A DNA stretch of 64,000 nt from NCBI GenBank assembly GCA_021807125.1, contig JAKAPK010000001.1, forward strand, positions 118,354 to 182,353. The letters run 5' to 3'. Below the pieces are notes generated by a model. It made no database searches. It was not told where the DNA came from and saw nothing but the letters and a program-made list of their open reading frames with translations. Source of the stretch: Nanobdellota archaeon. GTDB lineage: Archaea > Nanobdellota > Nanobdellia > Parvarchaeales > Parvarchaeaceae. Positions 39,474 to 44,763 of this stretch are shown piece after piece; position 1 is the first letter of the stretch, and each line of letters opens with the position of its first letter. A program made the translations under genes and the position numbers.

Positions 39474-39833
39474 ATGTTCAATAAAAGAGCACAAGGATTG
39501 CCGATTAACACAATAATATTGATAGCAGTCGGATTGCTAATATTGGTTCTTTTTATAGTATTTCTTCTTGGAGGTTTTGGCAGCTTGGGTGGAGCAAAAT
39601 CAAATCCTTATGCATCCTTTAGCTCGTCATGTCAAAGCGCTTGTTCTACAGATCAACTTAGTGGAGGTTCAGGCGAGCCAGCTAGTTTTTGTTCATTGAA
39701 TACTACGATAAATGGCGCAACAACCTATTGTGATAGCCCTTCCATGTCAACTTATCCTGGCGGCCATTGTACTGTTGGTTCCACGACTTATGGTGGTGCT
39801 TCAGGTCAGACCACGTGTACGGGCCATCCGTAA
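39474..39833 (+). CDS. Pilin-like exported protein (119 aa)
   Basis: MFNKRAQGLPINTIILIAVGLL is a DPANN-style pilin head: basic start, RAQG, then a long hydrophobic helix. The ~85-residue exported tail is Ser/Gly/Thr-rich with seven cysteines, suggesting a small disulfide-bonded domain. A TATA-like box at leaderless distance gives it its own promoter. Confidence 0.75.
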   Translation: MFNKRAQGLPINTIILIAVGLLILVLFIVFLLGGFGSLGGAKSNPYASFSSSCQSACSTDQLSGGSGEPASFCSLNTTINGATTYCDSPSMSTYPGGHCTVGSTTYGGASGQTTCTGHP

Positions 39834-39908: not shown

Positions 39909-40523
39909 ATGCTAAACAGAATAGGTGCTGCGGGGGCAGTTGTAAGCGTCGTCGGAATGACGCTTCTTGCGATAGCTGTAATGTATCTGTTTTACACGCA
40001 CACTTTCATAGTGAATCTATGCCCTACAGGGAAAAATCTTATTGATACGGCAATCGGTCCGATGTGTTATCCCAGTCTCAATAATACGATAATAGTGGAT
40101 GGAAAACCGTATTACAACAATGTCACGGTAGTGAACGGCAGCACGCAGATAAACTTTGAAGTTGTTGGTAAAGAGCCCCTCCTATCAATATGGAATCAGA
40201 ACATAAGTGAGCCGCCGAAGTCATATATTTTCCTTACGATACCCGATACTTTTAGCGTGCACATGCAGTACGTCTCAAACGTAACCACAGATATAATAAT
40301 TATGGACAATAAAAATTATATTGCTTGGGCGAACAAACAGCCGTACACCGCTGTCGCGACTTACACAGGAACTGGCATATCCTTCTGGTTCAACGAAAGT
40401 GACGGCTGTGCAGGTTATGTCGCTGTAATAACGCAGCCGAATAATGGCGCTTTTTCATTGACCCCGCACGAGACGGCCTTGTACGCTCCAAGTAACCATT
40501 CCACAGGCGCATGTGTTCCTTGA
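39909..40523 (+). CDS. Membrane-anchored exported protein (204 aa)
   Basis: MLNRIGAAGAVVSVVGMTLLAIAVMYLF forms one N-terminal helix with a class III-like Ile-Gly-Ala start. The ~170-residue ectodomain has many N-glycosylation sequons and four cysteines and looks beta-rich. No family recognised. It precedes the KaiC/GTPase operon but is separated from it by a promoter, so it is probably a separate unit. Confidence 0.72.
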   Translation: MLNRIGAAGAVVSVVGMTLLAIAVMYLFYTHTFIVNLCPTGKNLIDTAIGPMCYPSLNNTIIVDGKPYYNNVTVVNGSTQINFEVVGKEPLLSIWNQNISEPPKSYIFLTIPDTFSVHMQYVSNVTTDIIIMDNKNYIAWANKQPYTAVATYTGTGISFWFNESDGCAGYVAVITQPNNGAFSLTPHETALYAPSNHSTGACVP

Positions 40524-40586: not shown

Positions 40587-41201
40587 ATGGATTTAAACGC
40601 GTTTGAAGCAGTATCGGCATTAAAAAAATTTTATTCTGATGAAGAAATGTCACCTAAATTAACAAAGCTTTTCGTATCAGGCACTAAAGTAGGCGTTTCT
40701 TTGGAAAATCAGAATGGCGTTCTAAACCTGAAAGCAGTCCACCCGCTTAGACTTTACGCGAGAGACGTCTATAATATACTCCTTAGGCTGTACTTCGTAC
40801 GAAGCACGAATCTTACCATAAATTTCCAGGACAACGGAAAACAGAAGAGCGTTTCCAAGACTTTTGGCCCGGAAGAGGATATAGACGAAATAATAAATGA
40901 TCTTCTCGGTCTGCCCCACGAAAGTATAACCGATGTCGTTATAGAAACCGAATATTTCACGCTCAGGGAAACACAAAACGTAAGCGACAACATAAACGTA
41001 GTATTAAAGAAGGAATCACCCAAGATGCTTTTTAAGAGTCTTGTGAATTATCTTTTCCCGTTTGTAAACATGACAGTTGAAAACTCGGCAAAAGAAGACC
41101 TGTCTTTCTTAAAGAAGGACGATGAAGTCACAGTAGAACTTGATATAAATGTAGACGGTACTCCCCTTGGAATAAAATCAAAGAAAGTAAGGCTCGTCTG
41201 A
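40587..41201 (+). CDS. Orphan protein, first gene of the KaiC-GTPase operon (204 aa)
   Basis: No family recognised. The protein is soluble and mixed alpha/beta, with an acidic middle (FGPEEDIDEIINDLLGLPHE) and a C-terminal part rich in beta strands (VTVELDINVDG). Five bases separate it from the KaiC-like gene, so it should act with that operon. It could be an adaptor or regulator; nothing in the sequence decides this. Confidence 0.75.
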   Translation: MDLNAFEAVSALKKFYSDEEMSPKLTKLFVSGTKVGVSLENQNGVLNLKAVHPLRLYARDVYNILLRLYFVRSTNLTINFQDNGKQKSVSKTFGPEEDIDEIINDLLGLPHESITDVVIETEYFTLRETQNVSDNINVVLKKESPKMLFKSLVNYLFPFVNMTVENSAKEDLSFLKKDDEVTVELDINVDGTPLGIKSKKVRLV

Positions 41202-41206
41202 AATTT

Positions 41207-41875
41207 ATGGGGTTTTTGTCCACAGGTTTTAAATCTTTCGATACTAAGACACAGGGTCTAGAGACTAAGAGCACGTACTTGATAGTGGGCTCAAAAGATA
41301 GCGGAAAAGAAATGTTCGTATACAAGCTAGTTTCATCGCTCTTGGCGAATAAAGCGGACGTAGTGTATGTTTTAACCCGAAAAAGTTCGACTGATCTCGT
41401 TACAGACATTAATAAAACAGGATTCAATCTTGGCCAGTATCTTGGTGAATCGTTCAAAGTCTTGGACGATTTCAGCAGGACAATATCACCGACTATGGTA
41501 GACAATGCCTTCACCAAAGTATTGAATGGACCGGTGGACCTTACCGGACTTAACGTTGCGGTGTCTTCCGTAAGCAACGAATTCTTAAGGAATGGAGGGG
41601 AAGTAGTCGACGTATTCGATTCTCTGTCACAACTGCTGATATATAATAACAGCCCTACGCTTTTCAGATTCCTTCAGTTTGTCTGTGGAAAATCAAAATT
41701 AAGCGGTGTGACTTCGATTTTTCTTTTGGACGAAGAGATGCACACTCCAGAAATAAACGAGACTATACGCTCTCTTATCGACGTAGTGATCTCACTGAAG
41801 CTTGAGAACGGCAAACGGTATTTTACGATGTCCGGCGGGCAGAAAGAGGTGCTAGATTGGAGTCTGCTTGAGTGA
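41207..41875 (+). CDS. KaiC-like protein with degenerate P-loop (222 aa)
   Basis: The fold resembles RecA/KaiC: STGFKSFDTKTQGL (usual GIxxLD start), then Walker A position GSKDSGKEM, where the final Ser/Thr is Glu, VVYVLTRKS, a Walker B-like VVDVFDSLSQLLIY, and the FLQFVCGKSKLSGVTSIFLL strand. The changed P-loop predicts weak or no ATP hydrolysis. Its paralog forms the N-terminal half of the next gene. It may be a scaffold or a regulatory partner. Confidence 0.8.
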   Translation: MGFLSTGFKSFDTKTQGLETKSTYLIVGSKDSGKEMFVYKLVSSLLANKADVVYVLTRKSSTDLVTDINKTGFNLGQYLGESFKVLDDFSRTISPTMVDNAFTKVLNGPVDLTGLNVAVSSVSNEFLRNGGEVVDVFDSLSQLLIYNNSPTLFRFLQFVCGKSKLSGVTSIFLLDEEMHTPEINETIRSLIDVVISLKLENGKRYFTMSGGQKEVLDWSLLE

Positions 41876-41917: not shown

Positions 41918-43117
41918 ATGAGTGATCCTTTTTTTGGTGTGGGCAAACTTGACGGTGATCTGGATGGCTTTCCACCTCAAAAGACCGTAGTCATAAACGC
42001 GTCTCCGGACGTAGGCAACGAAGTGTTCGGTTACCAGATATCTCATGCAAACTTGTCGAACGACAAGAAAGTGCTTCTATTCTTAAACAGGATGTCCCCT
42101 GCTGCGTATCTAGCGGAAATGAAAGAATACAACCTCCCTGCAAATGACAACTTGAAGATAATAGACGCATACAGCAACATAACGGGGATAAAATCTCAAC
42201 CCACTAAAAACATCGTAGCCGTAGATAACCCTTACAATAAAGAGGAAATCTCAAAAAAATTGAGCGCCGAATTGGATGCCGGATACGACTTGGTGATATT
42301 CGACTCTCTTTCACTTTTTTCTGACATATTCGATATAGATTTCATGTTTTCCATAATAGACCTTGTCAACAGTAAAATAAAAGATTCAAAACTTTCATCA
42401 GTAATGTTATTCACCGACTGGGGTTACGGCGAAGACGTAGTTTCAAGACTTTACAAGAGTGCAAATGCGACGATAGAAGTCAAAGGCATAGAGAAAAGAG
42501 TCATATTCGGCCAGTACTTTGCCGTTGTAAAATGCGATTGGATAGAAAAAAGTATGCCTAGGACTGCACTTTTTAAAGCAGTTAAGCCGGGCGGAATAAA
42601 AATATACATACCGAAAATACTTGTTACCGGACCAACGGATGCTGGTAAGAGTTCATTCATACATAGTGCTTCGAAAACGGCCGTTAGCGTCGATAAGCTC
42701 GGCGGTACTATCGCTTTAGACCATGGACATATAGATTTTGACGGATACTCTGCCGATCTTTTCGGGACTCCTGGACAGGAGAGATTTGACCCGCTTCTTG
42801 AACTACTCGGCGGAGAAGCAATAGGTGTCTTGCTAGTCGTTGACTCGACTAAACCGGATCAATTCCCCAGAGCATTAGAAATGCTGCGAAAAACAGAGAC
42901 TTTCGGACTGCCGATAGTCGTAGTCGCAAACAAAGCGGATTTGAATGGCGCTTTGGAAACAGACGACATAAGAAAAAGATTGCATTTAGAGGACAGCGTT
43001 CCAGTCATAAAAACCGTTGCGGAGGATCCTTCGAGCATAGATCCAAACCAACCGACAAAATTGAAGAGCGAAGGGGTAGACAGTGCACTCAGATCGCTTT
43101 TTAGTCAATTAACTTAA
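41918..43117 (+). CDS. KaiC-like pseudo-ATPase fused to a COG2229/MglA-type small GTPase
   Basis: 399 residues. Residues 1-~225 are KaiC-like, but the Walker A position reads NASPDVGNEVF, lacking Lys and Ser/Thr; a Walker B-like DLVIFDSLSLFSD is kept. Residues ~230-399 are a GTPase: G1 GPTDAGKSS (~237), switch region TIALDHGHIDFDG, G3 DLFGTPGQERF (~281), G4 ANKADL (~337). LFGTPGQERF is diagnostic of COG2229-type GTPases, known in bacteria to work with Roadblock/LC7 proteins (Streptomyces conservons; MglA-MglB is related). A Roadblock gene follows directly. The GTPase part looks active. Confidence 0.88.
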   Translation: MSDPFFGVGKLDGDLDGFPPQKTVVINASPDVGNEVFGYQISHANLSNDKKVLLFLNRMSPAAYLAEMKEYNLPANDNLKIIDAYSNITGIKSQPTKNIVAVDNPYNKEEISKKLSAELDAGYDLVIFDSLSLFSDIFDIDFMFSIIDLVNSKIKDSKLSSVMLFTDWGYGEDVVSRLYKSANATIEVKGIEKRVIFGQYFAVVKCDWIEKSMPRTALFKAVKPGGIKIYIPKILVTGPTDAGKSSFIHSASKTAVSVDKLGGTIALDHGHIDFDGYSADLFGTPGQERFDPLLELLGGEAIGVLLVVDSTKPDQFPRALEMLRKTETFGLPIVVVANKADLNGALETDDIRKRLHLEDSVPVIKTVAEDPSSIDPNQPTKLKSEGVDSALRSLFSQLT

Positions 43118-43152: not shown

Positions 43153-43527
43153 ATGACGACAAAATCCGAACTTATAAAGCAGGTCCTAGATCATCTCAAT
43201 AATGTCGGAGGTATAAGAGCTTCTGCGGTAATTTCAGCGGATGGCCTTCCAATGGTCTCATCTATGCCGGAAGATGTTAACCCAAACACGTTTGCAGCTA
43301 TGTTAGCTTCCATGGTAGGATCTGCAGAGACCGCGCTTAAATCGATAGGTTCAAGAAACGTGCTCGAAAGGGTAGTCGCAGAATCAAAGGATGTTCGCGT
43401 TGTCGCGGTTCAAGCCGGACCGGATGCAATACTTACGATAATGATAGACCCAAGCACCAATTACGGTCTTATACTTCTTGAAGCAAAAAAAGCTTCTGAT
43501 GACATAGAAAAAGTGATGAAGCAATAA
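43153..43527 (+). CDS. Roadblock/LC7 domain protein
   Basis: 124 residues form one Roadblock domain: helix LIKQVLDHLNNVGGIRASAV, the ISADGLPMVSSMP strand-turn, AAMLASMVGSAETALKSIG helix, then the VVAVQAGPDAILTIMID sheet and a C-terminal helix. Roadblock proteins form dimers that bind small GTPases, acting as GAP (MglB), scaffold (Ragulator) or anchor. It is directly downstream of the fused KaiC-GTPase, so it is its likely partner. Confidence 0.9.
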   Translation: MTTKSELIKQVLDHLNNVGGIRASAVISADGLPMVSSMPEDVNPNTFAAMLASMVGSAETALKSIGSRNVLERVVAESKDVRVVAVQAGPDAILTIMIDPSTNYGLILLEAKKASDDIEKVMKQ

Positions 43528-43680: not shown

Positions 43681-44763
43681 TTACCTCAGTACTTCTATGC
43701 CAAGTTCTTGGCTTATTGCACCAGTGGTCTTGGACAGAGTGGTCACATCCTCAGGACCAAGAAGATAAGGCGAGCTTACGCCCGTTATTATCGTCATGAC
43801 CCTAAGTTTACCGCTCATGTTTTCATCTATCCTAGCACCCCAGATAACTACTGCATCTGGATCTAGCGCTTCGGTAGCCTGTCTTCCTATCTGATCGACT
43901 TCAGATAGTGTAAGATCTGGACCGCCAGTTATGTGTATAAGTGCACCTTTAGCACCCTTGTAGCTTACATCAAGAAGAGGGTTGCTGAGCGCACGTTTCA
44001 CGACCTCATTAACACGAGAGTCTGAAGCATCCGTCTCACCAATTCCTATCACAGATACGCCACCTTTGTTCATTATCGCTTTTATGTCAGCGAAGTCAAG
44101 GTTGACAAGGGAAGGTATGGCTATAGTTTCGACTATTCCTTTTATCATAGTAGCGACTACTTCATTCGCAACGTTGAAAGCCTGGTCCAGTGGAAGGTTT
44201 CCCGCTATGGACACAAGTTTGTTGTTGTCAATTACTATGACGGTATCGGAAGAGCCCCTGAGTTCCTGCAGTCCGAGTTCTGCATGCTCGACTCTCTTCC
44301 TCTCCGTCTTGAAAGGCATAGTAACTGTGCTTATAACTATAGCACCGAGTTCTTTGGCCATTTTTGCGACTACTGGAGCACCGCCAGTACCTGTTCCGCC
44401 TCCGAGTCCAGCGCAAACGAACACCAAGTCCGCACCTCTTAGCGAATCCTTTAGTTCTCTCGCAGATTCTTCAGCTGCCTGTTTTCCCTTCTCCGGAAAA
44501 CCACCAGCACCGAGTCCTCTTGTAGTCTCCTTTCCAATCAATATTTTTTTGTCAGCACTTCTTGCATTAAGATGTACCTGATCAGTGTTTGCTATTATGA
44601 CTTCTGCACCCTTGACACCCTTCTTGTAAAGCCAGTGTGCCATGTTGCAACCGCCACCTCCTACGCCGACCACTTTTATCAGGGCCTGACTGAACAACGT
44701 TTCATCAACTGCGTTGTTCTTCGCTGCCTTTAATGCGCTTTCCATTAAAAGGTCCATTACCAT
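43681..44763 (-). CDS. ftsZ: Cell division protein FtsZ
   Basis: 360 residues. GTP-binding signature GLGGGTGTGGAP, N-terminal GVGGGGCNM, and the T7 catalytic loop with NLDFADIK are present. The C-terminal domain (IHITGGPDLTLSEVDQ, VIWGARIDENMSGKLRVM) is complete; a long acidic C-terminal linker is absent. A GGAGGT Shine-Dalgarno lies 5 nt before the ATG at 44763. The gene converges on the KaiC/GTPase/Roadblock operon. Confidence 0.97.
   Translation of the reverse strand: MVMDLLMESALKAAKNNAVDETLFSQALIKVVGVGGGGCNMAHWLYKKGVKGAEVIIANTDQVHLNARSADKKILIGKETTRGLGAGGFPEKGKQAAEESARELKDSLRGADLVFVCAGLGGGTGTGGAPVVAKMAKELGAIVISTVTMPFKTERKRVEHAELGLQELRGSSDTVIVIDNNKLVSIAGNLPLDQAFNVANEVVATMIKGIVETIAIPSLVNLDFADIKAIMNKGGVSVIGIGETDASDSRVNEVVKRALSNPLLDVSYKGAKGALIHITGGPDLTLSEVDQIGRQATEALDPDAVVIWGARIDENMSGKLRVMTIITGVSSPYLLGPEDVTTLSKTTGAISQELGIEVLR

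Follow-up and report, generated by a model that had tools for sequence, protein, structure and literature searches.

The window, meaning the whole 64,000-nucleotide stretch of DNA that was analyzed, encodes on its forward strand a 399-amino-acid protein in which a KaiC-type domain is followed, in the same chain, by a small GTPase domain. The open reading frame lies exactly where the earlier note on this DNA had placed it, with every motif quoted there, and the features at the locus are as follows:

39474–39833, forward: short protein with a class-III-signal-peptide-like N terminus, KRAQGLPINTIILIAVGLLIL; conserved upstream gene (cluster of 21 members).
39909–40523, forward: protein judged pilin-like by eye, whose one hydrophobic segment is N-terminal; its gene is a conserved upstream neighbor in most of the genomes of this genus (cluster of 25 members).
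40587–41201, forward: 204-amino-acid protein in which no membrane segment is obvious; the fourth member of the Parvarchaeota core cluster.
41207–41875, forward: K2, a second KaiC-like protein of 222 amino acids (PF06745, 1.7e-11; PF24336 (DUF7504), 1.5e-11).
41918–43117, forward: fusion open reading frame, with ATG at 41918 and a stop codon that ends at 43117; 399 amino acids.
41918–42595, forward: N-terminal domain of the fusion (residues 1–226), by its motifs an inactivated KaiC (iKaiC) domain.
42596–43114, forward: C-terminal domain of the fusion (residues 227–399), by its motifs an MglA-type small GTPase.
43153–43527, forward: Roadblock/LC7 (MglB-like) protein of 124 amino acids (PF03259, E 1.2e-15).

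The 204-amino-acid gene, K2, the fusion and the Roadblock gene look like one operon because the gaps between them are short (5, 42 and 35 bp, respectively), and the same core order is found in Parvarchaeota and in Rehaiarchaeum fermentans. In most genomes of the main genus, two pilin-like genes directly precede the core cluster; neither of the products encoded here (39909–40523 and 39474–39833) matched a Pfam family above cut-off. An ftsZ gene (43681–44763) lies convergently just downstream of the Roadblock gene, an arrangement also present at one other locus (L048) and not in most genomes of the genus.

The fusion was found in 20 of the 23 genomes of one Parvarchaeota genus, that of the window among them, without internal stops; it was not found in the other three (G011, G018 and G020). 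An identical protein (100%) is encoded by a public record of a Nanoarchaeota/Parvarchaeota MAG (L031). A scan of GTDB contigs with patterns drawn from conservation at the genus level, which therefore reaches close relatives only, yielded 28 loci, each of them labelled Nanoarchaeota or Parvarchaeota, and these included R. fermentans, whose fusion is 49% identical. When a profile for the GTPase subfamily was applied to 371 genomes of the phylum, 19 reached E 1e-12; these strong matches came from five families (f1, f17, f39, f91 and f14), and all 19 were fused in frame to a KaiC domain. The same domain pair, for which the earlier note had proposed a database scan, therefore recurs in one genus and five GTDB families of the phylum. 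The chance that a sequencing or binning error joined two separate genes is practically nil, and we regard an assembly artifact as ruled out by a stop-free two-domain frame that is conserved across over 20 assemblies and across five families.

The two halves have diverged to different extents, with GTPase domains of other families 56–61% identical to that of the window and N-terminal domains only 26–27% identical. In one genome of a further family (G033, f12), the N-terminal domain occurs alone as a protein of 238 amino acids. A tree of N-terminal domains placed all fusions in one group (100/100), with this stand-alone domain among or next to them, the K2 proteins in another (94/95) and motif-intact KaiC proteins in a third (100/99). 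This grouping is consistent with a single old fusion.

AlphaFold2, supplied with 19 orthologues, modelled the whole chain with a mean pLDDT of 78; the low-confidence parts are residues 191–214 and 260–265 (switch I). The N-terminal domain adopts a KaiC fold, with VIA-align Z scores of 20–21.5 across about 200 residues: 21.5 against PH0284 of the RecA superfamily (rmsd 3.2, 223 aligned), 20.2 against FlaH/ArlH and about 20 against KaiC. A profile of 12 N-terminal domains matched PH0284 at 5.8e-15, followed by KaiC, PH0186 and FlaH, in line with the KaiC/RecA relationship that the earlier note had read from the sequence. The FlaH subfamily model PRK06067 also matched the domain (5e-7), and more distant fusions matched TIGR03877 at about 1e-18 to 1e-22. 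The window's domain gave no match to the Pfam KaiC family, PF06745, above its gathering score, and falls far under the cut-offs of the NCBIfam KaiC models. A different fold for this half is ruled out by the AlphaFold2 model, VIA-align and the profile match to PH0284.

At the P-loop position the domain reads NASPDVGNEVF, without Lys or Ser, and the Walker B-like sequence DLVIFDSLSLFSD, which includes Asp129, is retained, both as previously described. The account given earlier was right that the P-loop Lys and Ser/Thr are gone but stopped short of the full loss, since the catalytic Glu pair has gone as well. Aligned with PH0284, the GxPGTGKT-F loop becomes AxPAVENEVF, with the Walker A Lys and Thr both replaced, and the catalytic LEE-P becomes LNR-SP. 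No fusion examined keeps the Walker A Lys (the P-loop positions read VGNEV, VESGV, VESIP, VEDLQ, VTNQE or LESEP), and in place of the catalytic EE they have NR or NN, apart from one degenerate copy (TD, in G337). Because Walker A and the Glu pair are both replaced, we classify the domain, on sequence grounds, as an inactivated KaiC rather than a KaiC ATPase, which is more than a P-loop-less one.

The pseudo-P-loop, ASPxVGNEVFGYQ (residues 28–40 of the fusion), is invariant in 12 of its 13 columns, compared with 75 of 226 for the N-terminal domain as a whole (19 orthologues of the genus; hypergeometric p about 9e-6). It is thus among the most conserved stretches of the domain, and we therefore infer that it may have been reused as a binding surface. 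The earlier suggestion that this domain could itself feed its nucleotide state to the GTPase switch is unlikely, given that the ATP-binding and the catalytic residues have both gone; a scaffold or partner-binding role would fit better. The earlier note had also suggested that the domain might order GTPases in a hexamer.

The C-terminal half matches the Arf, Ras and small_GTP models. Its motifs are intact, as had been reported: G1 is GPTDAGKS (within GPTDAGKSSF), the G2 Thr is present, G3 is GTPGQ (within GTPGQERF) and G4 is NKAD. The G3 motif GTPGQERF is found in every fusion except that of G337 (GAPGDD), and the G2 Thr and the residue beside it read TT in G039, G183 and G317, GT in Parvarchaeota and ET in R. 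fermentans, with Arg nowhere. In MglA Groups 2–5, G3 is GTPGQ instead of DxxGQ, and the residue beside the G2 Thr is Thr, not Arg (PMC4316618). Coupling to a Roadblock gene, by which the MglA family is also recognized (PMC4316618), is seen in Parvarchaeota, G183 and G317. At 399 amino acids and with a KaiC domain, the fusion lies outside the single-domain limit of the MglA census (<=240 amino acids). Searched by sequence against the PDB, the GTPase half returned Arf and Rab at the top, with no MglA chain among the best 60 matches listed. Homologues of this half on plasmids are small GTPases, mostly annotated as "ATP/GTP-binding protein", and those examined from Deinococcus and Streptomyces adjoin Roadblock genes; no relatives of the N-terminal domain were found on plasmids. 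From its G3 motif and the coupling to Roadblock genes, the GTPase half appears to be of MglA type.

The G337 copy (L159, contig C53, 1687–2799, reverse strand) lacks the G3 Gln and Arg and also NKxD, and looks like a pseudo-KaiC joined to an apparent pseudo-GTPase. As this copy is damaged in both G3 and G4, GTPase activity is presumably not kept in every lineage. At the junction of the window's protein, the end strand of the KaiC-type domain reads GIKIYIP, and the P-loop strand of the GTPase, ILVTG, follows directly; the corresponding strands in the AlphaFold2 model span residues 226–230 and 233–237, with nearly no linker. With no long linker between them, the two domains are probably rigidly coupled in the folded protein.

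Fold, motifs and conserved architecture thus agree with the original description of a P-loop-less KaiC domain and a small GTPase in a single chain. The architecture is real, conserved and coherent, its parts are of two known kinds, and it is without a name in the sources searched: the databases and literature searched gave no named family of KaiC–GTPase architecture, as the earlier note had supposed. A literature search, including one that combined KaiC, roadblock and GTPase, yielded no description of such a fusion within its reach, which extended to sources other than the main survey of KaiC hubs.

Among the neighbors, K2 has the P-loop-like sequence GSKDSGKE, in which the Lys is retained, Glu stands instead of Ser/Thr, and the catalytic EE is gone from the protein. 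In each of the five families, the fusion has a K2-type KaiC adjoining it or in the neighborhood: next to it in f1 and in G337, at a distance of about 2.6 kb in G317 and of about 9 kb in G183, and, if the single contig is circular, within a few kb in G039. In R. fermentans and at the loci of Parvarchaeota, a Roadblock gene follows the fusion directly, and Roadblock genes are beside or near it in f1, R. fermentans, f39 (G183) and f91 (G317); none was seen in the stretches examined of G039 and G337 (the G337 contig is 4.6 kb). The Roadblock/LC7 protein is a candidate regulator of the GTPase. The 204-amino-acid protein matched no Pfam or NCBIfam family above cut-off and is confined to the fusion's own family, bar one weak partial match. 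It was modelled confidently by AlphaFold2 (pLDDT 87), and no known fold could be assigned to it: Foldseek returned nothing with E <0.001, and VIA-align gave Z <=4.5 among Foldseek's PDB candidates, which include Roadblock and Mediator chains as weak matches only. Beyond Parvarchaeota and R. fermentans, the genes around the fusion encode pilin-type proteins together with a secretion ATPase and proteins of TadC type (in G183), sensor proteins (PAS, FIST, V4R and HAMP domains) and TrmB-type regulators.

The locus resembles several known systems in part. With MglA and its MglB/Roadblock partners (Groups 2–5; actinobacterial CvnD and archaeal Group 4) it shares GTPGQ at G3, NKxD at G4 and, in most fusion loci, a Roadblock gene next door; Arg is likewise absent beside the G2 Thr, although only some of the fusions have Thr there. 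The MglA proteins of the census, by contrast, are free and of at most 240 amino acids, longer ones having been excluded (PMC4316618), whereas in the loci described here an inactivated KaiC always shares the chain of the GTPase. The bacterial conservons (CvnA–D) are likewise small conserved clusters, which combine an MglA-type GTPase with a Roadblock protein and a protein of unknown function, but they carry a histidine kinase and a DUF742-type protein, whereas the fusion cluster has two inactivated KaiC domains and no kinase. ArlH/FlaH of the archaellum has a KaiC-like fold without ATP hydrolysis, as is predicted for the fusion from its motif loss; unlike the fusion, it binds ATP, has no GTPase domain and belongs to the arl operon. 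The fusion is not an ArlH orthologue (21 bits for the NCBIfam ArlH equivalog model, against a cut-off of 215 bits). Finally, the iKaiC domains of archaeal signalling proteins also have a KaiC fold, have lost ATPase residues and are joined to other signalling domains, but the partners named for them in one survey are of the REC, PAS and HalOD1 kind (PMC5847659), whereas here the partner is a GTPase. Elsewhere, in G217 (L088, 3720–5519, reverse strand), two short P-loop-less KaiC-like proteins alternate with two response-regulator-receiver-like proteins, possibly a separate iKaiC signalling cluster.

The reading that we favor, with moderate confidence, is that the fusion works as a GTPase switch of the MglA type held in cis on a catalytically dead KaiC scaffold, docked on a KaiC-type assembly that contains K2, controlled by the Roadblock protein and with an output at the envelope or cell surface. 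The dead KaiC domain would serve as a protein-binding scaffold and would dock the GTPase on an assembly that includes K2, with the GTPase occupying the position that the second KaiC domain (CII) holds in a two-domain KaiC. The Roadblock protein would be its GAP or GEF, in the role that MglB has towards MglA, and an envelope or surface-filament machine would read GTP loading as on or off. In bacteria, GTPases of the MglA type govern cell polarity and pili. Bacterial MglA in its GTP form promotes the assembly of type IV pili, and MglB is its GAP (PMC9481161); KaiC-family and Roadblock genes have been reported from the type IV pilus loci of archaea (PMC4858521). Gene order is what suggests that the fusion may interact with K2 or with the Roadblock protein.

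One alternative would give the contact with K2 a part in ATP binding: the fusion and K2 would form a hetero-ring with ATP-binding sites at their interfaces, and ATP binding by K2 would gate the GTPase. The pair in the window is complementary in this respect, in that the fusion has a Lys (K205) at what we take to be the place of the KaiC trans-acting finger, and K2, with GKE, has no such finger but retains the Lys of the P-loop. We nevertheless consider such composite sites improbable: K205 is replaced by Ser or Asn in 3 of the 19 orthologues, an acidic residue takes the place of the Mg-binding Ser/Thr in K2, and the K2 proteins of G337 and G183 have no proper GK. An equally speculative possibility is a hetero-oligomeric KaiC-type ring made of inactivated KaiC domains only (the fusion and K2), with the cis-fused MglA-type GTPases as its second tier. 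At the other extreme, the fusion could be a plain lineage-specific one, monomeric or dimeric, whose iKaiC domain only tethers or localizes the GTPase and which forms no ring and serves no dedicated output. Archaeal signalling proteins do often fuse inactivated KaiC to domains such as REC and HalOD1, usually with a narrow phyletic spread (PMC5847659), but the gene cluster is fixed in Parvarchaeota, K2 accompanies the fusion in all five families and the pseudo-P-loop is strongly conserved, all of which make this simpler account unlikely.

The envelope output of the favored reading could be narrowed to a pilus or archaellum, with the iKaiC half docking, like ArlH, on a type IV pilus ATPase of the ArlI/TadA type and the GTPase setting when or where a filament is built. 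Among named proteins, FlaH/ArlH is one of the closest relatives of the N-terminal domain, and ArlH, itself a non-hydrolyzing relative of KaiC, acts on ArlI (PMC8978795). Genomic context points the same way: besides the two pilin-like genes upstream of the cluster in most of the genus, the G183 fusion lies between pilus-ATPase/TadC-type genes and Roadblock genes, and the fusion follows pilin-type genes in G039 and is close to two in G337. Against this, ArlH keeps ATP binding, which the fusion's N-terminal domain should not. We took a strong PF00437 match in a frame of about 390–670 amino acids as a pilus-type ATPase, and weaker PF00437 matches in frames of about 750–790 amino acids, judging by score and frame length, as probable CDC48-like AAA proteins. 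By this definition, the type IV pilus-type ATPase is absent from the fusion-bearing genomes G117 (98% complete) and G317 (90%) and from the window's own, incomplete genome (79%); the three genomes in which no fusion was found, G011, G018 and G020, do have it. A strict link to type IV pili is therefore not upheld, a pilus output is only weakly suggested, and a dedicated pilus regulator seems to us a possible but doubtful identity for the fusion.

The fusion joins two regulatory families that are usually kept apart, the GTPase switches of the MglA/MglB kind and the KaiC-type signalling hubs, and their permanent covalent linkage leads us to predict that the KaiC half provides the switch with its address or scaffold. 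If the ring of inactivated KaiC domains exists, GTP switching would have replaced ATP-driven phosphorylation as the signal on a KaiC-like platform. Our analysis suggests a pre-assembled signalling switch in Parvarchaeota and a few related families, which, if true, would offer a concrete handle on regulation in Parvarchaeota, whose genomes are very small.
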